This document shows positions 4,960 through 29,827 of a stretch of 64,000 nucleotides of DNA, piece by piece. A model generated the notes under the pieces. It worked only from the letters and a program-made list of their open reading frames with translations, did not search any database and had not been told where the DNA came from. The translations under genes and the position numbers were made by a program. Origin of the DNA: Polyporus tsugae (Eukaryota > Basidiomycota > Agaricomycetes > Polyporales > Polyporaceae). The first letter of the stretch is position 1. Each line of letters starts with the position of its first letter. The stretch lies in contig JAHRBS010000010.1 of assembly GCA_024305745.1 (NCBI GenBank), forward strand, positions 937,501 to 1,001,500, written 5' to 3'.

Positions 4960-6344
4960 ATGTCAGAGGGCACCTCCGACTCACCCAAGCCAGATATCTA
5001 TGCAAGACTTGCTGCCGTCGAGATTGCCTGGAGGGACCGGCAGCAGTACTTAGAGTCCCGTGGCTATGTGCTCCGGCGCCGTTACCGACCCGACTGGCAA
5101 CCGTCTTGGAAGCTAGACCCGACAATACGAGCCAGGCATGCTGAAGACTCTTTATCAACTCATGTGAGTAAAGCTAAACTCTAATGGCTGTTTGGAGCCC
5201 TCAATGTTCGTAGATGCTGCGGTCGAGTCTCATGGACGCAACAAGAGTCGCAGACGGCAAGCTCGTACTGCTCAAGCGCATTCGCACAGATTCGACGGAG
5301 TTGACCATTGCCAGACAACTGTCTTCCTCGGAGTATCGCTCTGATCCCCGCAACCATTGCGTACCTATTCTGGACGTTATTCCGGACGCGGACGACCCCG
5401 CGAGGTCGTACATTGTAATGCCCTTCCTACGCTACGTGGACAACCCTCCCTTCAGATCTGTCGAGAACATCCTCGAATGCGTTGATCAGCTGCTTGAGGT
5501 TTTTTCTTTTTCTTTCTCTTAATGCTTAGAGGTGCTAACGTCAGCATCCAAGGGCCTCGTATTCCTGCACGACCATGGCGTTGCTCATCGGTAAGCACTA
5601 TGAGGTCCATGAGTTCACCATGATAATAGACCGGCCTCACCACAGGGACTGTGCTTACAAGAACCTGATGATGGATGCAACACTGTTATATCCTGACGGG
5701 TTCCATCCTATGCGCCTCAATTCTCTGCCCCAGCGGATCACGCGTCCCGCTACCCTTCTGTCACGCAACTACGTGCCAGTTACCTACTACTACGTCGATT
5801 TCGGTATCTCTACGTGGCTGAAGCCGGAAGACACGGACAGATATGTCGTGGGCTCGGACGGTCTGGACCAGGACGTCCCTGAGCTTTCCGACGACGTTCC
5901 CTATGACCCGTTTAAGGTCGACATTTTTGTTCTCGGAAATTTCTTCCGTCAGCACTTTATACAGGTGTGTTTGACAGGTCATCCATGAGACGTTGTTGAC
6001 CGGTTACCGTAGCGTTACTCCAATGTGGATGTCCTTGAACCGCTGGTCAGCCAAATGACCCGTAGCAACCCTGCTCATCGTCCGACCGCCGCAGATGCGC
6101 TCCATCATTGGACAGCCTTGCGGCGCAACATCTGGAGCGTGCAGCGGTTCTGGAGGCCTCGTCCACGCGGGGAGCCTCTAGTAATCAAAGCGTTCTCTGA
6201 CGTATTTTCCTTGGTAAGTTTTTTTGTCCCGTGCTCACGTATCTCGAGGCGTTAATTCTTGACCACATAGCTTTATCTTGTCTATAGGTTCCTACACTTG
6301 TTGCGGTGATGGGCTCAAACACTCGCAGTCACTCGTTACCTTGA
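4960..6344 (+). CDS. Kinase-like protein K1 (six exons, 367 aa, intact)
   Basis: Protein-kinase-like family common in Agaricomycetes. Exons 4960-5163, 5214-5498, 5553-5590, 5646-5964, 6013-6213 and 6288-6344 join without stops. N-terminal signature: WRDRQQYLESRGY.LR.RYRP.W..SWK. A VAIK-like lysine is in LVLLKRI. The catalytic loop is HRDCAYKN, made across the 38-nt exon 3/exon 4 junction, with the aspartate and asparagine present but alanine where most kinases have the loop lysine. A DFG follows (YYYVDFGIS), then a DIFVLG helix-F motif and a PAHRPTAADAL helix near the end. No clear glycine-rich loop is visible. This is not the FunK1 type by its catalytic loop. It shares exon sizes 285, 38, 319 and 201 with K2 and K3. 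Likely cytosolic; substrate unknown. Divergent partner is S-A. Confidence 0.82.
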
Positions 6345-7020
6345 TTATTCGTCCTTCGTCCTGCTGTCATCGCTTCCTTACATGCTATCCTTCTCATGTA
6401 CTGTAACCCTCGTTGATTGACCGGCTTCGAGTTCTCGTGACATTACATAACTTCCATCTATGTAACAAAGGTTATACTCACACGACCATTTGCCATGGGG
6501 CCATTGTGAATCTATGGTTGCTAGGCTCCTTGAATGGTAACTTCGAGCTCGAGATGCCTGTCGATCGCTCAGCAGGGCAATCGTGGAAAACAACTTGAAC
6601 GCATCGATTGCACAGGTGCTTCAGCAGGCTTATATCCCGCTCTACATCCACATCCCGACCTGTTTCTCATCGGGATTTGAACAATTGCGAACACAACCAA
6701 CGTAGATAAGTGCCCTTAGTGACTAGCCTTCGCGATCGCATGAGCCTGCCACAAGAGGTACTAGAGGTTACGTACAACAGCAGTGACCGCTCAACGTGTT
6801 TGCTGATTTGAAGGGTGGCATGCGAGTAACGCGCGCGAGTATCAGACGGGGATGGATCGCCACGACGGGCACCTGGTTCGACGCGAGGTATTGTGCCTGA
6901 CTCTTGAAAAGTGCGGCAGTATCAGTGGAAATGATACTGGTTGAAAACAATAGCACACCAGCCGACACGATCAACATCCCAATCAATAGTACCGACGCGA
7001 TCAACTACTAAAGTCCTGGT
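6345..7020. other. Spacer downstream of K1
   Basis: 3' flank of K1. Several short open frames on both strands, none resembling a known family and none matching the flank of K2 well enough to call. I see nothing to annotate. Confidence 0.4.
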
Positions 7021-7960
7021 GTTCGTTTCAGATTCGCCTTGTCTCCAGGGACAACGGCCACCCTTCGCGTCCACAGCTTCTTCGGGCGCAGTTAATGCGC
7101 AGCATCCTTTGTACGAAGCTCCGGACATTATTATCCTTGCGTGATCCATGGACCATCATTCAATTCAGAAGAGTCGCCCTGGAATTCGAGCGGTGCCTCA
7201 AGGCGAAATGTCAGCTCGAAATTACCCCCAGGCCACATCGACGAATTTGAAAGTTACGATACGCCCAGTCGGGTCACGACAACACCGCAAACTTCAAGAT
7301 GACGGATATGGGTTAACCCTGGCTTACGGCTTCATCCCACGAGCCCATCACCGGCAAGTGGAACGATGTACTTAGCCCCGAAATCTATGCAGCCGAACGT
7401 GAGGCTTTCCAAGCCAGTGGCAATATGGAGGGGTCTAAACGAGCAGTGGGATTACATGAACAACGACGGGTATATCAGCAATGCGAACGGCTCAAAGCTC
7501 GAAGACATCTTCTCACCTGCAGGGCCGTGGGGTTCAGCAGATGCGATGTCCCCAATATGAGCATCATCACGGTGGGATGAGCCGCTGGGACGCCATGCGG
7601 GTGTGGGGCGTTACCCGGTAACCGCTCGCCTTGTACCGCTGAAAACGAAGCAGGGTCCGCGATGGGAGCCATTTAGATGGCAGTTCCTAATTGTTCGCCA
7701 GACAGTATTGCGATGTAACGGCGAGATCCCGAGGAGTGACACCTTGTTATGTACGTTAGTCGGTGGCTTGACTCTATGTCATCCGGGGGGCATGTCCTGT
7801 TCTGAAACGGGAATGGCAACGTAATGAGCTTGAGCGACAGGAGGTTACTGACGAATACATGTAACGTACATGCATCTTCTTATTGCACGCGCGACGGTCC
7901 CTTGTGTGAATCTGGCCTGTTGGGTTGGAATTTGAAAAATGGCAGTGGGAGACCGACATT
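7021..7960 (+). pseudogene. X1: degenerate coding-like segment, duplicated at 18.5-19.2 kb
   Basis: Unrecognised. Short pieces look like decayed coding sequence on the plus strand: a piece ending QHPLYEAPDIII at about 7104-7140, a piece PITGKWNDVLSPEIYAAERE near 7340-7400, charged continuation with EQRRVYQQCERLKARR (about 7450-7510), and KREWQRNELERQEVTDEYM near 7806-7862. Frames change between pieces and stops intervene. Two blocks recur downstream of K2: TTTGTACGAAGCTCC-like DNA (7109 here, about 18543 there), and the stretch around GTCCCTTGTGTGAA (about 7898 here, about 19132 there). This shows that the segment was part of the duplicated unit. No function proposed. Confidence 0.4.
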
Positions 7961-8671
7961 TGAACACGAGAATGCCAGGCTCCCTTCCCAAACTTTCGGA
8001 TATATCGAGGACTAGTTTCGTAGTGGGCGGAGAGCGGAATCGTGAAAGCACTGGAACGAAGTCCCTGTCCTGACTGTGGTGAGAATCATGGCAGTGGGGG
8101 AGAAGAGGAGTTCAAGTTGCCAACCCAGGATTTTACGTTAACAGAGTGAGTTGTGGAAGCATAATTCTCGAGAACGTGTATTGAGCTCGGAAGGACAAAG
8201 AGGTGGACGTAGCTATGGGTACCTCTATGTAGTTACGAACTCCAGTACTGGGCCACAGTAAACCATTACGTTTCGGATATAGCCGAAAGTGGATCGGCAT
8301 TTGCCGTAGGGGCACGCAGCCACTGAGCTTGTTCGCAACGCAACTGGTGCTGCTTCTGCCACCTGCTGGAATATTAATGCGTCACTTCACCTTCGTCTTC
8401 CCACTATAAGGCTTTGACTTCACTCCATTGTCCAGCATACCCAGCATATCCAACTATCTTCTGGGGAGGAAACAAAGTTAGGACCATCGGCGGCGCGGCA
8501 GCATGAGGGATGACGCAGATGATGAAAGGAGATACCTCTTGGGTCTTGCCCAACATGGACAGCAGCGTACGTCACCCACATAATCGACCATCTCCTCAAA
8601 CCCACCCCGCTTGAACCGTTGCCACTGCCTTCCCCAGTACTAGACTCATCCGTTGTTCGTAAATACGATCA
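7961..8671. other. Spacer and promoter region of Q1
   Basis: No gene supported. The last 110 bases hold the 5' flank of Q1, including a 17-base block shared with Q2 (listed separately). Confidence 0.45.
8563..8579 (+). promoter_or_regulatory. Conserved Q-promoter box, copy 1
   Basis: CAGCGTACGTCACCCAC occurs 93 bases before the Q1 start codon and again, identical over all 17 bases, 120 bases before Q2 (12309-12325). It contains TACGTCA, close to a CRE-type bZIP half site. The flanks are less alike, so the box is better conserved than its surroundings. Role as a binding site is inference. Confidence 0.5.
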
Positions 8672-10711
8672 ATGGGCCAGAGACACCAAGCTTTCCTCAT
8701 CGCCCATGTTCGCCCTCACGGTGCTCAGTCTGGCAATCCCGGACAAAGACGTTGCATAGCAGGATTCCACCACCAGTGGTGTTGTGGCAGTCTCCCGCTG
8801 CTCGCCATGTGTCGTCTCATCACATTGGTGAGCCACCCAGAGAACGCCGCCATGGTCCGTGCCGAAATACGGACCATTGACGGACAATACAAATATGGCT
8901 ACGAAGAGCCCGAAATTCCAGGCATTCCCTGCCCCTATACCGCGTCTCTCTTGGGCTCGGCGTGGACGACGGATCTGGAGGCCGGTCAGACGGTGTACGC
9001 TTCCGGTTGGACTTTGGAAAACGCTGTTTTGCGTGCTTGGATGGGTTGTTGGGATGAAGGTGAGTAGCTGCGGCCTATTCAGTTCGATTGTTCCTGATCA
9101 CACTCCCTGGAATCACTCAGACAACAACGATGGCATCTCTATCCTCGATATCACTGAACACGACCGCCCCGCGTACTGTTTCCTACAAGCCAAAGATGTT
9201 CTTGATGCATACGAGTACCTGAGCACATACTATTCCATCGGTAAGTACCAACCTTCACCGCCTGTGGGCAGCAGCACGAAGAGGGATGAAGGTGTAGATG
9301 AGACCAATACTGAAACCGAAAGCGACGAGGATCGTGAGTCCTTATTCAATGTATCTCGGGTAGATATTAAGACGCGGCCGATTCAGAGTATTCTCATCCC
9401 TCCAATAGATTATCACGGGCCATCGAGGGTCTCAAGGACGTTCCCGTCATCAGCGCAGACCTCCTACGAGAGGCTTGGCCCCACGTTCGTTTTCGGGACC
9501 TTCGACATTCGCCCGCCTCCTCAACGACAATGACAGAGGTCGCATCCGTTGTTCCTTCCTTGGTGGCATTGACCTTCGATGCCGCCGTGAAGCACTCTCT
9601 TGACACCGCGGACACAAGGGACCTCGAGCGACTCATCTGGCTCCCGGGGAAGGCTGAAGAGGTCAAGAAGATTCTCCGCGACCTTAACCCGTTCCCTGAT
9701 TTTGGCGCCCAACTACTCGTTCGCGTGCTGTCGGAGTTGAAGGAGAACACTAGAGTCAACCTCTCGGACTTCCAGCTCTCGGGCACACAGCTTCTCGAGG
9801 TTCTGTCTGGCTGTGGCGAAATTGCGTTTCTGGATGTATTGTTCAATAGTATCCTCGTTGCGGACGATGTCCTGAAACTGCTTGAGGCAGCTCCTACCCT
9901 TCGCCGTCTCGTGATGATCGGGTGCTCCTCCATCACCGACGCACATATACTCGCCCTTGTGCAAAACGAGCCATCTCGCTTCAAGTCTCTGGAAGGCCTC
10001 ATCCATCCTGCATTCCTCACCGTCGAGAAGCCGGACCCCTACCCTACTGTCTTCACATTTGTCAACGGGATGGACAACCGCAAACTAGCGTGCGCCTCCA
10101 TGCCCTTCTTCACCCCAGCGCAAGTCATCCAGGCGCTGATCGACGTTCTCCCATGGAAGAATGCACAGGAGGATTACGACCAGAGAGGCTCATCTTACCC
10201 TATGATGGGATTTTCCGCATTCCACGGGGGAGTTCGCGCGCCGGACGAGAAGTTCGGTCAATGACCGGTGGTGTCTGTGCCGTTCCTTACGCCCCTGATC
10301 CCTCGCGGCCAAAAGGACTTCTGGGCGTTCATCGTGTCTCGCGCGTCCCCGTTTCCTTTCTCCAAAAACCAGAAGAACATGTGGGGTTTCGTGCACTTCA
10401 CGTCTGAAGAAGAGTCTGGTACCAGCGACGCCGTTCCAGCGACCGAAAGCGCTGTGACAGGATGGAGGGAGCCGGTTCGGAAGCTCGGCACGGGCCAGTT
10501 GTACGACGTGCGCGGCTTCTTGGAGTGTATGGCGAGCGATGGGCGGCCGATGCCGTCAGAGGCTGCGGTGAAGGAGTTAGAACGCGTCTTGTACAAGAAG
10601 CATGGCAGGACAGGCGAGTTCTACTGCCCGTTCATGCGGGAGGAGGACGTGAAGGAGATTGAGCAGTTTCGGAGCGACGGGTACTATTCCGGCGAGCGGT
10701 ATAGGATGTGA
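8672..10711 (+). CDS. Q1: MGQRHQAF-family protein with LRR-like middle and in-frame TGA
   Basis: Belongs to an uncharacterised Agaricomycete family that starts MGQRHQAF. Exons 8672-9059, 9121-9333 and 9387-10711. Residues 1-130 hold the family N-terminal part (FHHQWC.GSLPL..., SHPENA); exon 2 begins with NNDGISILDITE and ends in an acidic linker; exon 3 carries a leucine-rich, LRR-like stretch (LRRLVMIGCSSITDAHI) and LIDVLPWK. Codon 493 is TGA (10262-10264, after KFGQ), yet the same frame stays open for 148 more codons to a stop at 10709-10711 and includes FWAF..SRAS, GFVHFTS, LYD.RGFLECMAS.GRPMPSEAAVKELE and FYCPFM. Q2 has a TGA at the identical codon. The product is therefore 492 aa, or 641 residues if TGA is read through. 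Function unknown; F-box-type LRR proteins are one comparison, but I see no F-box. Confidence 0.7.
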
Positions 10712-12444
10712 ATGGTAACAACGGATTGTGATGGTGATTTGTTGCTGCTCCCTGTTCGCATTTTTGTATGTTGTCTGTTTGGTCAGCACAGATAGCTGGA
10801 TGTGTACGGCTCGGGTTTCTTGTCAGAAGTCGACGGTGCATTGTCTCGTGGTGTCGTACTACGCAGTGTGTATATATGATAATGTGTAAGCAGTCGTGTT
10901 CCAAGTCGACTTCAAGTGAACGTCGGGCCAAGCAGTGTGTCCAGCTTAGGTATTTCCCGCCGTCACCGAAGTCAGTCATATTTTCAATGTTATAATCTTC
11001 TAGCTCACTGGGTGTAAGTATCAACGAATTGGCTCGGTATATTTCAATTGTCGAAGCCTGAACCAGCAGAAGCTGGTAGGGCGCCTGCGCAAAACATACT
11101 CCGTCGAGATGGTTTGGAGGGTCTGGCACTGGCAGCCTTCGAACTGTAGTGTCGCGCAGTCACACTTCATGTCGGCCGTGGCACGCGACCGCACAGACCA
11201 GGGATTGTACCCTCGAGATTCAAAACTCGGTGACTATTTTAACTCCCTGCCAGCATATCGGCGTGTAGATATGGACGGGAAGGAGAGTAATGCTAAAGCT
11301 AGGGGGCGATACCCAATGTTATAAGGTGGGGGAGAAAACGGTATGAAACGGGGCCAGAAATTATCAAACAAAACCTTGAAGCGCGACAAAGTTGCTCGGG
11401 CACTCGCTGCCATTTGTGAGCTGCGTGGAGACACCGTGGTGACGACGCGCCTGTGTCCGGATCCACCCACGAGTTTGCTTTCGGCGCCGCCGCCGCCGTG
11501 CAGGACCAGTATCTGGTGATTCATAGGGATCATCGCGATGTGTCACCACTGGGTGCTGCGTCCGACCCTTGGGTTCCTGGACACCTACACAACCGCTGCC
11601 TGCCGGGGGATCGCACCGCGTGACGTCAGCACGGATGTGCATGCGCACTCTTCCGGGATGAGGATGCGAGTGCGCCATCTAGCTATCGCATATTATTATA
11701 CCTGGGTCCGGCGGAAATGGCGAGTATGCGCCATTTTGCGATAAGGACTGTGCGATTGTAGAATAACAGGGCTTCAGAGGGGTAGATGAGTGTGAATGCA
11801 ATGCCGTACAGGTGTAGCACATTGATCCACCGTGGTGCCAGAGATGTGACCGCCGGTGCGGGTACTACGCTGGGATTTTCCGTATGGTAGTCCAAATTGA
11901 AGATCCAAGCGGTCAAAATGCGTAGCCGTTTGTGCTCCGAAGAGCACGAGAGAGGTCCTTGGAAGAGATGCGTTCGGTTTGTCGAAACCACTATTGCTAC
12001 TACTAGTACTGGCCGCGGCAAACCCATTGGCTGTGCCTTCGGATATAGGCTCGGCGTTTGCCGCAACCTTTGACAGTGGAGCACTCAGCGGCCGCGTCTG
12101 TCTGGTGTTTGACTTACCCTCCTTGACTGCAGCAATGCTCCTCTGCCTTTCTCCTATGAGCCTTTGACCTGGCCCGTTATCTCTGAAGCCCAGGATGTGC
12201 AACTACCATTTGGAGAGCAAGCACCGTTCGGACCATTGGCACGGCGGGACGATCAATGAAAGTAGTACTGTAGAGGAGGTTCTTGCCCAAACACAGACAA
12301 CAATCGAGCAGCGTACGTCACCCACGTATAATCGTGATTCCCTCTCGAAGTTGACCTTGAGCTTGAAAGCTTGGACCTTTGAACCACCATCATCCCTATC
12401 GCCAGTCCCTTTCACCACCACCCACTCATCAGTAACAGACCTCG
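10712..12444. other. Spacer between Q1 and Q2
   Basis: The first 250 bases are the Q1 3' flank and are similar to the Q2 3' flank (shared GCTCGGGTTTCTTG and GAAGTCGACGGTGCATTGTC blocks near 10808-10845 and 14623-14668). The minus strand at 11774-12202 has a 142-codon open frame rich in Ser/Ala (KVAANAEPISEGTANGF), overlapped by another minus frame with a hydrophobic piece; I do not recognise either and do not call a gene. The remainder shows nothing. Confidence 0.4.
12309..12325 (+). promoter_or_regulatory. Conserved Q-promoter box, copy 2
   Basis: Identical 17-base copy of the block at 8563-8579, 120 bases before the Q2 start codon, containing TACGTCA. Confidence 0.5.
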
Positions 12445-14550
12445 ATGGGCCAGAGGCACCAAGCTTTCCTCATCGCCCGTGTTCGCCCCCACGGTGCTCA
12501 GCCCAGCGATCCAGGACAGAGACGTTGCATAGCAGCTTTCCACCACCAGTGGTGCTATGGCAGTCTCCCGCTGCTCGCCATGCATCGCCTCATCACGCTC
12601 ATCAGCCACCCAGAGAATGCCGCTGTGGTTCGTGCTGAGGTCCGGGCAATTGACGGGCAATACGGCCGGCATGGTGCACAGAACCCCCAAATTCCTGACG
12701 TCCCTTGCCCGTACGCTGCGTCTCTCTTGGGCTCGGCGTGGACTACGGATTTGGAGGCTGGTCAGGAGATGTACACCTCTGGGGTAACGTTGGAACAAGC
12801 TCTTTTGCCCGCTTGGTTGGGCTGCTGGGATGGACGTGAGTGATGAAGGCCCTTTCAGCCCGATTGTTGCTGATCAGAGTCGCCGGACCCACGCAGACAA
12901 CGACGACGGCATCTCCATACTAGACATCACTGAGCCTGACCACCCCGCCTACTGCTTCCTCCGCCGGTCCGAAGGTGTTCTAGACGCATATGGATACCTA
13001 AGTGCATACTATCCCGTCGGCAAGTATAAAGCCTCTCTGCCTACGGGCAGCGTAAATGAGAGTGCAAGGAAGGCTGAGGACGTCGGTGAGGATGATACCG
13101 AAGGCGAAGGTGATAGTGAAGACGGTGAGTACTTCTTCTTCGGCGGAATGCGAGTCAATATTGAAACGTGGCCAACCCAGAGTCTTACTATCAACGCAAC
13201 GAGGAAGTGCACGAGCGACACAGGTTACAGTTCATCCAAGCTCTTGAAGGTGTTCCCTACATCAGTGCAGACCTCTTACGCGAGGCTTGGCCCAATGTTC
13301 GCTTCCGGGACTCCCGACGTTCTCTTGCCCCTTCGACAACGATAGGAGTTGCAGAGGTGAACACACTGTCTGGTCCTCCATCCCTTGTCGACTTGACCCT
13401 GGACATCGCCGTGAAATGCTCCCTTGACACTGAGGATGCAAGTGACGTGGAGCGACTCATCTTACTCCCGGGGAAGGCGCCAGAAATCAAGAATGTCCTC
13501 CGCAGCCTCAACCCGTTTCCTGATTCTGGCACCCAGCTCCTCGTCCGCGTACTGTCGGAGCTGAAGGAGGGTGTTCGAGTCAACCTCTCCAACTTCCAGC
13601 TCTCTGGCACCCAACTTATCGAGGTTCTGTCTGGCTGTGCAGAAGTCGGATTTCTGGATATATTGTTCAACAGTATCCTCGTTGTGGACGATGTCCTGAA
13701 ACTGCTTGATGCAGCTCCTACCCTTCGCCGTCTCGTGATGATCGGGTGCTCCTCTATCGCTGACGCGCATATACTCGCTCTAGTGCAAGACAAGCTGTCT
13801 CGCTTCAAATCTCTGGAAGGCCTCTTCCACCCTGCATTCCTCACCGTCGAGAAGCCGGACCCCTACCCTACTGCCTTCACGTTCGTGAACGCGAGGGACA
13901 GCGGCAACCTAGCCTGCGCTTCCCTACCATTCTTCATCCCAGCGCAAGTCATCCAGGTGCTGATCGACGTCCTCCCATGGAAGGATGCAAAGGAGAACCG
14001 CTACATCATGGACGCCTCTTTGCCCTTGGTGGGGTTTTCCGCGTTTCATGGCGGAACGCGCACGCCGGACGAAAAGTTTGGTCAATGAGCGGTCGTATCC
14101 ATGCCGTTCCTTTCCATCCGAATCCCTTGCGGCCAAAAGGACTTCTGGGTATTCGTCTTGTCCCGCGCCTCCAAGTTTTGTTTCACCAGGAAGAAGAACA
14201 CGTGGGGCTTCGTGCACTTCACTAGGTCTGAAGAAGAACCCAGTGGCGACGCACCGAGTCCGGTGACCGAAAACGCTCCGACGCGACAGAGGATGCAAGT
14301 CCAAAAGCTCGGATGCTCGGGTCGTCTCTACGACCTGCGAGGCTTCTTGGAGTGCATGGCGAGCGAGGGGCGCCCGATGCCGTCCGAGGCTGCGGTGAAG
14401 GAGCTGGAATGCATCTTGTACAAGAAGCATCGCAAGACGGGCAAGTTCTACTGCCCGCTCATGCAGGAGGAGGATGCGCAGGAGATAGAGCCGACGGGGA
14501 GCAATCGTCGTTTTGGTGAGCGGTATGATGAGATGGGATTCAGATTGTGA
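12445..14550 (+). CDS. Q2: MGQRHQAF-family protein, paralogue of Q1, same in-frame TGA
   Basis: Second full copy of the Q family. Exons 12445-12835, 12897-13124 and 13181-14550, with intron phases equal to Q1 (phase 1 at both). N-terminal MGQRHQAFLIARVRPHGAQ, acidic linker longer than in Q1, LRR-like middle (PTLRRLVMIGCSSIADAHI) and the conserved C-terminal part (GFLECMASEGRPMPSEAAVK, FYCPLM). Codon 509 is TGA (14086-14088), again directly after KFGQ, and the frame stays open in phase for a further 153 codons to the TGA at 14548-14550. An ATG at 14101 could start a separate short product, but Q1 has GTG at that place, so this start is not conserved. Protein is 508 aa, or 662 residues with readthrough. 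Function unknown. Confidence 0.7.
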
Positions 14551-16017: not shown

Positions 16018-16792
16018 TGACACACCTCAAGTAAAGAGTGGTGCAAAAACGAGAGTGGACGTAGTAAAACAATGGCAGGCAGTAGAGAGAGCTCGGTTCA
16101 CCGCAGTCGGAGTCGTGGCCAGCCAAGGACTGATGAGGTGCTGCCGGTTGCAGTGTACGACTTTAACATGGTTGGGCAGTCCTTATATTCAGTGGATTCT
16201 GGTAGCTGGGAAACCGAGATACCAGCTGGTATGGCACTTGGAGTTATTCGTGCGTCCGTGGAATATGCGGAGGTTACGAGCAGGGGTCCATCGCCAAGGC
16301 TGAACGCGCGCCCAACATGTCAATGTAATCTAGAATAGGCAATATGAAGCGTGCTGCTGGCTTTTTGCCGCTGGCCGTTCACATGCACCCACATGAGGTT
16401 TCGTACGACTTTGACCACCGGTGACAGCCAACGACAACAACACGAGCCTCCAGTACAATGGCGGTGATTCAGACAACAAAGGAGCATTTGTTTTGAGGAC
16501 AGGCCCTGTGCACAGTCACCGACCCGAAGTCTAGCCACGGAACAAGTTGCGAGGCCACAGAGAACTTCGTGGGTGCGCGTAGGTCCGTATTACAAACTCC
16601 GGGAAGTCGGAGTCGCCGCACATTCGCCCTCGGATGGCAACAAAGTTAGAACTCCGCTCCATTTACATTGTTCTGACTTTGAAACCGTCCTTGGCATTCA
16701 ACATGGACTCGACGATTCGTATTGTTTGATAAAACTCCCCACCCCCCTCATTCTCCTCATTTCCACATTCTCTGGCCTATTTGTTTCGTAAA
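16018..16792. promoter_or_regulatory. Shared divergent promoter region, S-B / K2
   Basis: 775 bases between divergent start codons. It contains the K promoter box at 16668-16684 and the TACAAACTCCGGGAA block near 16590 shared with the K1 flank. A TATA-like CTTATATTC lies at about 16182. No coding sequence supported. Confidence 0.5.
16668..16684 (+). promoter_or_regulatory. K-gene promoter box, K2 copy
   Basis: TTGTTCTGACTTTGAAA, 109 bases before the K2 start codon. The same 17 bases occur at 29925-29941 on the minus strand, 97 bases before the K3 start; K1 has a diverged version. ACTCCGC just upstream is also shared. Confidence 0.55.
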
Positions 16793-18161
16793 ATGGCGCA
16801 AGGGGCTGTTGAGGAGTACCACGATCTAGTTGCTCAGCTTCACCCTGTTGAGATTGCCTGGCGGGATCGTCAGCAATATCTCGAGTCACGAGGATACCTA
16901 CTCCGAGCTCGTTACCGACCAGGATGGGTCGCCTCTTGGAAGTTGGACCCGAGCATTAAACCTTACTACGCGGAAGACTTTCCGAAGGCACATGTGAGTG
17001 ACATCGTGTTCTGTAGGACAAACGAAGCACTGATCTCAAGCCAGCTGTTGCACCCCCACCTCATGGATGCGACAAGGGTGTCCGATGGCAAACTCGTTCT
17101 TATGAAGCAAATTGCTACGGAATCATTGGAGTTGAAGATAGCTACCAACTTTTCCTCTCCGACCATGCGAGAGGATCCTCGTAATCATTGCATACCCGTG
17201 TTGGATGTTTTCCCCGACGAGGACAATCCCGGTAAATCGTACCTCGTGATGCCCTTCTTGCGTTATGTGGATGAACCTTCCTTCGAATCTATTTGAAGCA
17301 TGCTCGAATGCGGCGAGCAACTTCTCGAGGTGCGTCTACTTTCATCCCCCTCGGCAACTACTGACAATACGTTAGGGCCTGGCATTCCTTCACGAGCACG
17401 GCGTGGCGCATCGGTATGTACGTCGCATTCGAACGTGTCTTAATGTTCATTTGTCTGCACGCAGGGACTGCACGTACAAGAATGTCATGATGGACGCAAC
17501 GGCTATGTATCCATTAGGCTTTCATCCCCTTCGCTTGGATCGTTTACCACACAACTTGAGGCGATGGGCACCAGTACGATCTCGTGATCAGGTGCCTGTT
17601 ACCTACTACTTCGTCGACTTTGGTATATCTTCTTGGTTTCAACCGGGCGACACGGACAGGCTCGTCGTTGGTGAATCTGGCCTAGACCAAGATGTTCCAG
17701 AGCTATCGAACGACATCTCCTACGACCCATTCAAGGTAGACATCTTCGTCCTGGGGAACCTGTTCCGTGAGCACTTCACCGACGTGAGTCCAATGCTTCT
17801 CAGCAGCTTGCATGTAGGCCTGACCAACCCGCTAGAAATTCACCAACCTTGACTTCTTGGCCCCACTGCTTCGGCAGATGACCAACAACGAACCCACACT
17901 CCGTCCGACCGCCGCTGAGGCACTCCAACGCTGGAAGACATTGTGTAGCGGCACGTGGGGTTTGCAGCGTCTCTGGCGACCTCGGCCTCGCGACGCCAAC
18001 TTTGCCGTTCAGATGGCTGCTGATGTTTTCTCCTTGGTGAGTTCCACTTCTCGTCACCCGGAGCTGCTGATCACCATGTGTTGATCCCTAACTTAGCTCT
18101 GTATGATCTACAGGTTTCTGTTCTCAGTGCTTCTCTAAGCCGGGGTGCTGGTCATTCCTGA
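16793..18161 (+). pseudogene. Kinase-like K2, broken by a nonsense codon in exon 2
   Basis: Paralogue of K1 and K3 with identical exon plan: 16793-16993, 17045-17329, 17376-17413, 17465-17783, 17836-18036 and 18114-18161. N-terminal WRDRQQYLESRGYLLRARYR, lysine in LVLMKQI, HRDCTYKN catalytic loop across exons 3 and 4, FVDFGIS, and RPTAAEAL are all kept. At 17294-17296 the codon aligned with CAA (Gln) of K3 is TGA, within ..PSFESI-stop-SMLECGEQLLE. Everything after it remains in frame and well conserved, so the damage is a single recent lesion. Intron 1 is 51 nt without a stop, so retention would not alter the frame. If the stop is real, the product is about 150 aa and lacks the catalytic loop. 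A base-call error cannot be excluded from sequence alone. Confidence 0.75.
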
Positions 18162-28038: not shown

Positions 28039-28116
28039 TTATATCTCTCGAGTCAGTGAGGCCGGCTCGATCCCTATCTCCCGCATGTCCTCCCCCCGCA
28101 TGAACGGGCAGTAGAA
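28039..28116 (-). pseudogene. Q3: C-terminal fragment of a third Q-family gene
   Basis: A short minus-strand stretch reads EFYCPFMRGEDMREIG and ends with a TAA at 28039-28041. It matches the end of Q1 (EFYCPFMREEDVKEIE) and Q2 (KFYCPLMQEEDAQEIE). The sequence before it does not match the rest of Q, so only about 25 codons survive. It lies just beyond the 3' end of K3, as expected if an S-K-X-Q unit was copied in inverted orientation and then eroded. Confidence 0.6.
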
Positions 28117-28456
28117 CTCCGAGCCCTTTCAAGCACAAATGGCATTACACCGGAAGTTTGAAATCTGCATCTACAACTTGGACTTCTAACCGTGTGAACC
28201 GAACACCTCAGGGTGGGTGGCGGCTGCTGTAGGACTGGGTTCGAGCTCGCCCTCACTGACATGGCCAAGTCTCCTCCAGCGTACGGTCGAAGGCTATCCG
28301 AGCGAGTCACCTGAATCCTCCATCCGTGAATGGTGGTCCACTGATGTGTCGGTGGATCGGAACTTCGCAGGATCGATGACTATGCTAGGTTCTATGGTAT
28401 TCGACACACGGTTACTGTTACAGCACATACTATGTACATGTCTAGATAACAAACGA
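28117..28456. other. Spacer between the Q3 fragment and K3
   Basis: 340 bases, 3' flank of K3 on the minus strand. No match to the X segment was found here and no gene is supported. Confidence 0.4.
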
Positions 28457-29827
28457 CTAGGGTGACATCGGGTACGCACAGGAATCTCTGCGATGACCAG
28501 AACCACGGCTGATAGATGCACCCAGAATAGAGACCTGAAGAACTCGGCATGGGTCTCCTTGGAGGACGAGAAGTGGAACTCACCAAGGAGAAAGCATCGG
28601 AAACGGCCTGAACAACGAAGTTTGCATCGCGTGGCCGGGGTCGCCAGAGACGCTGCAAACCCCACGTATCATGACGCAGCATTTTCCACCGTTGGAGTGC
28701 TTCCCCTGCCGTTGGGCGCAGTGCAGGATCCTCGTTGGTCATTTGGCAAAGTAGCGAAGTTAAGAAGTCAAGGTTGGTGTATTTCTAGCGCACTGGTCAG
28801 CTCGAAAATGATACAGAAGAATGTTTACTCACGGCGGTGAAGTTCTCACGGAACATGTTTCCAAGAACAAAAATGTCTACCTTGAACGGGTCGTAAGGAA
28901 CCTCGTTCGATAGCTCCGGAACGTCTTGATCGAGGCCAGAGGTACCCAGAACTAGTCTCTCGGTTTCGTCCGGATGAAACCATGAAGAAATTCCGAAATC
29001 GACAAAGTAATAGGTAACGGGTACCTGATCACGAGATAGCACTGGCGCAGGTCGTTGTAGGTCGTGTGGTAGGAAGTCCGAACGAATGGGATGAAACCCT
29101 TGGGGATACATAGCTGTGGGGTCCATCATAACGTTCTTGTACGCACAGTCCCTGTATACTTGTGAACGGTGAGATCTGGTTGAACATGGCGGATATCATA
29201 CCTATGCGCGACCCCTTGCTCGTGTAGGAACACCAGGGCCTGAAGAATCATGAGTAATCGTCCATGGGAGACAAGAACAGCGTACCTCAAGAAGTTGTTC
29301 GCCACAATCAAGCATGCTTTGAATGGATTCGAATGGGGGATCATCCACGTAACGCATGAACGGCATTACGAGGTAGGATTTACTAGGGTCGTCCTTGTCA
29401 GGAAAGACGTCCAATACGGGTACACAATGGTTGCGAGGGTCCTCCCGCATCTCCCGAGAGGAAAGATGTGTGGCAATCTTCAATTCTTGCGATTCTGTAG
29501 GGACCTGCTTCAAAAGGACGAGCTTGCCATCCGACACCCTCGTTGCATCCATGAGCGAGGGTCGCAACAACTGGTTCGAATTCAGTAAAAATTAGCCAAG
29601 CAATTAGCTGCTTAGCTTACATGTGCCATCGGGAAGTCTTCAGCATAGAAAGGTTTAATGCTCGGGTCCGACTTCCAGGAAGCGATCCATCCCGGTCTGT
29701 AACGAGATCGCAGCAAATACCCTCGGGACGCTAGGTGTTCCTGACGATCCCGCCAGACGACCTCAACGGGATCGAGCTGGGCCACGCGATTGTAGTAATC
29801 TTCAAGATCAAAAGCTGCTTGAGCCAT
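28457..29827 (-). CDS. Kinase-like protein K3 (six exons, 375 aa, intact)
   Basis: Intact third paralogue, in inverted orientation. Exons 29827-29621, 29570-29286, 29239-29202, 29151-28833, 28784-28584 and 28534-28457. Exon sizes 285, 38, 319 and 201 equal those in K1 and K2. Motifs: N-terminal WRDRQEHLASRGYLLRSRYR; lysine in LVLLKQV; HRDCAYKN; YYFVDFGISSW; DPFKVDIFVLGNMF; RPTAGEALQRW; and a short final exon VSILGASISRGSGHR that resembles the K2 end (VSVLSASLSRGAGHS). Active-site Asp, Asn and DFG are kept; the loop lysine is replaced by Ala as in K1. ATG at 29827 matches the MAQ start of K2. Divergent partner is S-C, which carries a nonsense codon. Likely an active or semi-active kinase of the Agaricomycete HRD-type expansion; substrate unknown. 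Confidence 0.85.

Follow-up and report, generated by a model that had tools for sequence, protein, structure and literature searches.

The 64,000-nucleotide stretch of Polyporus tsugae DNA analyzed here (GenBank assembly GCA_024305745.1, contig JAHRBS010000010.1; C13:937501-1001500 in our numbering, hereafter the window) carries two tandem paralogues, Q1 and Q2, both on the plus strand. Each has three exons and an in-frame TGA codon inside the third. In the spliced models, Q1 starts with MGQRHQAF in exon 1 (8672-9059) and continues through intron 1 (9060-9120, 61 nt, equal in length to its counterparts in Q2 and in a copy on contig C8), exon 2 (9121-9333), and intron 2 (9334-9386, 53 nt) into exon 3, which is open up to the TGA (9387-10261). 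Q2 comprises exon 1 (12445-12835), intron 1 (12836-12896, 61 nt), exon 2 (12897-13124), intron 2 (13125-13180, 56 nt), and an open exon 3 up to its own TGA (13181-14085). The introns have GTGAGT donors and CAG acceptors throughout. The parts before and after the TGA lie in one frame, of which the TGA is the sole stop before the natural end, and the upstream frames of Q1 and Q2 are both intact; the two sides of the TGA are one gene, in Q1 as in Q2.

An earlier note on this DNA had drawn attention to the two premature TGA codons (10262-10264 in Q1, 14086-14088 in Q2), and had offered programmed readthrough, mRNA editing of TGA to TGG, or two old dead copies as explanations. Its description of the codons was confirmed: each is preceded by AAG TTY GGT CAA (encoding KFGQ) and followed by a long open tract, of 148 codons in Q1 (former C-terminal region at 10265-10711, stop included) and 153 codons in Q2 (14089-14550, stop included), each tract closing with another TGA. 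In the alignment of the two tails, 66% of residues are identical (query residues 2-146, E = 3.4e-54), well above chance. Less exact was the statement that no shared in-frame intron could remove the stop. With donors up to 120 nt before and acceptors up to 200 nt after the TGA, and intron lengths of 35-200 nt, there are 10 in-frame GT-AG pairs in Q1 and 15 in Q2 (22 and 37 when GC donors are also counted), three of the GT-AG pairs lying at offsets common to both genes (-117/+53, -5/+147, and -5/+150). Splicing out of the TGA was nevertheless rejected, as all candidate pairs lack a GTGAGT donor and their use would cost conserved codons.

When the 43.2-Mb genome (18 contigs) was searched at the DNA and protein levels, copies turned up at four places, namely Q1, Q2, and two on C8, although genome copy counts for large families are lower bounds. 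One C8 copy is full-length: its third-exon matches lie at C8:1689693-1690127 and 1690134-1690997 on the minus strand, a 451-codon open frame runs across the TGA site, and the spliced frame is uninterrupted over 647 amino acids. Its codons around the site are CAA CGA ACG, compared with CAA TGA CCG in Q1 and CAA TGA GCG in Q2. CGA likewise occurs in the second C8 copy; this one, however, is a 5'-truncated exact duplicate of part of the first C8 locus, and C8 thus provides one independent witness, not two.

Larger duplicated segments surround some of these copies. About 5 kb around Q1 (6209-11157) form a segmental duplicate, 84.6% identical to the C8 locus. The exact duplicate within C8 spans 9,908 bp (L014+L015, C8:1604407-1614314, versus L016+L013, C8:1680541-1690447), and is inverted and circularly permuted. 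It opens at original position 1684834/1684835, at its inner joint the original's two ends meet, overlapping by 1 bp, and GC is found at both ends. By analogy, this arrangement fits the duplication via a circular DNA intermediate described in PMC7450558, with its change of order and microhomologies, and it may also be an assembly artefact. A further piece of 44-45 bp at 28074-28119 of the window (minus strand) is 84-91% identical to part of the third exon of the Q1, Q2, and C8 copies; in the same BLAST search, the match extended no further.

A wider family bears on the ancestral state of the codon. Using the C8 copy as the query, a search that scored 7993 candidates sharing most words listed 66 matches, giving at least 66 homologous proteins (best E reported as 0), the best of which come from Ganoderma leucocontextum, in line with a source in Ganoderma or a close relative. 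At the aligned position, the 66 listed proteins have Arg (62), Gln (2), Ser (1), or Glu (1), and none has Trp or a gap. All of them run through the site, and none terminates at the TGA codon; predicted proteins cannot show an internal stop, and a TGA-bearing counterpart would be expected as a protein that terminates at this point. Shortened versions in other assemblies were sought with the pre-TGA pieces of Q2 (307 amino acids) and Q1 (297 amino acids), which gave 6 and 8 hits, respectively, and five new proteins (P0067-P0071). Three of these have Arg, P0069 stops short of the site, and P0067, out of frame at this position, was excluded from the counts. The Arg column ranks tied 7th to 9th in conservation among all columns. 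It is the only invariant one among the 41 of 71 proteins picked for a structure model, a choice that excludes P0042, P0060, P0065, and P0066, the four homologues with another residue at the site. Since these four lack it, Arg does not strictly define family membership. Q1, Q2, and the C8 copy are homologous over their whole length to this mushroom family of leucine-rich repeat (LRR)-like proteins, annotated as hypothetical or 'RNI-like', and Q1 and Q2 depart from it by carrying TGA in place of the conserved Arg.

The family is LRR-like in its middle part. Pfam gave no family at E <= 1 for the four sequences tried (4/4), and a PDB sequence search with P0002, a G. leucocontextum member, gave two weak matches only (best E = 0.034, an F-box/LRR protein). 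Of 369 PDB matches returned by Foldseek at E <= 10, none reached E <= 0.001; the LRR parts of TAP/NXF1 and of F-box proteins ranked highest. The AlphaFold2 model of P0002, built from the 41 sequences, has a mean predicted local distance difference test score (pLDDT) of 82.9 and a predicted template modeling score (pTM) of 0.86. In this model, the conserved arginine (R509) is located in a predicted loop between helix 488-496 and strands within 516-554, which are followed by helices 592-602 and 609-619. Averaged over ten-residue blocks, pLDDT is 77-93 at 511-560 and 80-98 at 581-640, and low at 561-580 and past 641. Much of the part lost to the TGA is, thus, predicted with confidence to be folded.

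Selective constraint was compared on the two sides of the stop. Pairwise maximum-likelihood ratios of non-synonymous to synonymous substitution rates (dN/dS) after the TGA are 0.265 (Q1-C8), 0.257 (Q2-C8), and 0.266 (Q1-Q2), and the corresponding values before it are 0.431, 0.295, and 0.305. Over three methods and three pairs, dN/dS ranges from 0.23 to 0.39 after the TGA and from 0.25 to 0.45 before. Together with the relatives, which translate the region, these values bear out the claim that the post-TGA part was translated after the duplication, and the substitution pattern indicates a tail that remained coding through most of the period that followed. Of the observations that the earlier note had named as counting against its proposal, a sense codon in the orthologues was found, and a dN/dS near 1 after the stop was not. 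Polarized changes on the Q1 branch number 2 synonymous and 2 non-synonymous after the TGA and 14 and 16 before; for the C8 branch, the figures are 5 and 6 downstream of the TGA and 28 and 30 upstream. These counts include the stretch 9833-10048, apparently converted between Q1 and Q2, which inflates the pre-TGA C8 branch. At conserved sites, where changes are few, Q1 and C8 differ at 11 of 249 positions upstream of the stop and at 0 of 65 downstream (p = 0.13); for Q2 and P0002, the corresponding figures are 12 of 267 and 4 of 78 (p = 0.76). Overall, Q2 and P0002 are identical at 472 of 508 positions before the TGA and 141 of 153 after.

The stops can be dated with a maximum-likelihood tree of 21 proteins, which places Q1, Q2, and C8 among Ganoderma proteins. 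In this tree, Q2 groups with P0002 (support 100/100), and Q1 groups with the C8 copy and P0001, also from G. leucocontextum (100/100), although the branching order among these three is unsettled. P0001, for which the record is partial, is probably the G. leucocontextum counterpart of Q1 and P0002 that of Q2, and the two probably form the same tandem pair there. They belong to the same family as Q1 and Q2, but have Arg at the codon where the latter have TGA. As the nearest relatives of Q1 (C8 and P0001) and of Q2 (P0002) all have Arg, the stop came after the split of the two lineages. The same observation led to the rejection of a shared ancestral TGA with reversion in C8, since Arg is found in the nearest relatives of both genes from another species.

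The explanation that accounts best for these data is that nonsense mutations struck one conserved Arg codon in both tandem copies, no unusual decoding being needed; we give it a probability of roughly 0.87. The ancestral codon, CGA as judged from the C8 paralogue, would have become TGA in each copy through a single C-to-T change at a CpG. For Q2, we infer the earlier CGA, the relative P0002 being known as a protein only. Two separate, young nonsense mutations are the most likely course, with one mutation followed by a very short gene conversion less likely. The stops are probably young in both genes, which fits the lack of significant relaxation in the tails. Ribosomes would be expected to halt at the TGA, removing about 150 residues, and Q1 and Q2 are probably non-functional, or encode shortened proteins at most. 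The conserved look of the tail would then reflect translation that lasted, until recently, through most of the period after the duplication, and so date from before the stop arose. Among the options of the earlier note, dead copies come nearest, and the stop replaces a sense codon of the relatives, as in a nonsense pseudogene. The word 'old', nevertheless, has to be dropped, since the stop does not precede the split and neither tail is significantly decayed.

An ordinary CpG transition is enough to produce these stops. The transition bias estimated from these genes is 6.4, with a CpG factor of about 2.1 relative to other G/C transitions. On the Q1 branch, 5 of 136 CpG sites and 14 of 684 other G/C sites underwent a transition; for the C8 branch, the figures are 12 of 156 and 24 of 693. 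Where Q2 differs from Q1 = C8, 26 exchanges of CpG against TpG/CpA run one way and 27 the opposite way, and the CpG observed/expected ratio is 0.85-1.18, without depletion. Repeat-induced point mutation (RIP) was rejected on this basis, as the strong excess of C:G-to-T:A changes, in Ganoderma mostly at CpG, that marks RIP-mutated duplicates is missing.

Several observations weigh against two ordinary mutations. This codon makes up only 2.7% (Q1) and 2.5% (Q2) of all nonsense opportunities (the letter exchange behind these shares and the branch CpG counts also touched one out-of-frame Q1 site upstream, and the nonsense counts were judged unaltered), so that the same codon mutated twice is a mild but real coincidence. 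No RIP signature was found in Q1, Q2, or C8 by branch counts, direction counts, or CpG observed/expected ratios, leaving no such process to explain both hits. Finally, the absence of significant post-stop relaxation in either tail, a comparison of low power, fits continued translation equally well; it neither opposes readthrough nor favors readthrough over young stops.

In one variant, contained in the probability given above, a single nonsense mutation in Q1 or Q2 would have been transferred to the other copy by gene conversion. Exchange between the copies does seem to have taken place: at 9833-10048 in Q1 (about 13657-13872 in Q2), sites at which Q1 equals Q2 against C8 predominate, and this stretch, judging from the site pattern, was probably converted between Q1 and Q2. 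Nevertheless, the run stops about 210 bp ahead of the TGA. Close to the stop, Q1 equals C8 at 10249, Q2 equals C8 at 10255, and all three differ at 10265; as none of these sites has the Q1 = Q2 pattern, a conversion tract at the TGA could span 15 bp at most. Two separate CpG transitions are simpler than so short a conversion, and the transfer of one mutation is, thus, unlikely, while still deserving consideration.

Another variant shares the mutations of the main explanation and differs from it in their outcome. Truncation may have been selected, the shorter proteins being useful, which would account for a hit at the same codon twice and is in keeping with the intact upstream frames of both genes. 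The modeled cut, however, falls in a loop ahead of confidently predicted strands and helices, and we regard selection for the short forms as improbable.

Under programmed readthrough, an amino acid, perhaps Arg, would be incorporated at the TGA, and Q1 and Q2 would yield the full protein. The tails are indeed open and constrained in both copies, with no significant relaxation after the TGA, and UGA is described as able to take tryptophan, arginine, cysteine, or serine (PMC4207609). C follows the stop in Q1 (TGA CCG), as the earlier note pointed out; in Q2, the next base is G (TGA GCG). Both lack the known fungal readthrough core, UGA followed by CU (UGA CU(A)), as given in PMC4207609, which also states that the selenocysteine machinery is missing in fungi. 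Conservation of the stop and its extension in relatives, another mark of fungal readthrough genes, is likewise missing: the C8 paralogue has no stop, all 66 listed homologues continue through the site, and conserved readthrough was not seen. An ancestral Arg codon, moreover, leaves nothing to explain, and neither readthrough nor editing is required when C8 has CGA in an open frame and Arg dominates the column. Useful readthrough would imply Arg insertion at a UGA whose surroundings are not known to cause leakiness in fungi, and two independent Arg-to-TGA changes that were tolerated and kept, a combination we hold to be very improbable, as we do readthrough in general.

That both TGAs are errors of sequencing or assembly at a methylated CpG is highly doubtful too: CpG is methylated in Ganoderma sinense (PMC4457147), but the CpG-to-TpG excess expected from systematic miscalls was not found in Q1 or Q2. 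Editing of the mRNA back to a sense codon has the slightest chance of all, for although PMC9723688 notes a report of editing in Ganoderma lucidum and other Polyporales, and PMC10532568 describes stage-specific RNA editing in Coprinopsis cinerea, the former source doubts the G. lucidum report and found no evidence of editing in the vegetative growth of five Polyporales or in C. cinerea sexual development, and an A-to-G change would turn TGA into a codon for Trp, the residue seen in none of the homologues, only U-to-C yielding Arg.

Gene-like open frames flank Q1 and Q2 at 5017-5988 and 16733-17852. They resemble each other (73.6% DNA identity over 106 columns between 16847-16952 and 5017-5122), and a further related piece lies at 29616-29805 on the minus strand (79.5% identity over 190 columns). 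Pfam gave nothing at E <= 0.01 for the four flanking gene-like frames tried (4/4).

The locus calls for caution, as recoding can seem to be at work when tandem paralogues share a stop and the frame beyond it stays open and conserved. Here, one extra paralogue and a set of homologues were enough to date the stop after the lineage split, and to place it at a codon for Arg whose counterpart in the paralogue includes a CpG. The TGA codon also flags a strongly conserved arginine in an uncharacterized mushroom protein family.

Two known systems are close to Q1 and Q2 in some respects. The fungal UGA-CU readthrough genes (Ustilago maydis tpi1 and others), as described in PMC4207609, likewise have an in-frame UGA with open codons after it. 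Unlike them, Q1 and Q2 have no CU and a stop that is not conserved in relatives, and their post-stop part comprises about 150 residues of a conserved protein, in contrast with the short targeting extension of the UGA-CU genes. The other system is found in Ganoderma, where PMC4457147 reports CpG methylation in G. sinense, a RIP-like process favoring CpG in repeats, and CpG-to-TpG conversion as a source of TGA stops. Q1 and Q2 resemble this case in that a TGA arises from a CpG-containing codon in duplicated sequence; they differ from it, as there described, in lacking a mass of C-to-T changes, and in being genes, not transposable elements.

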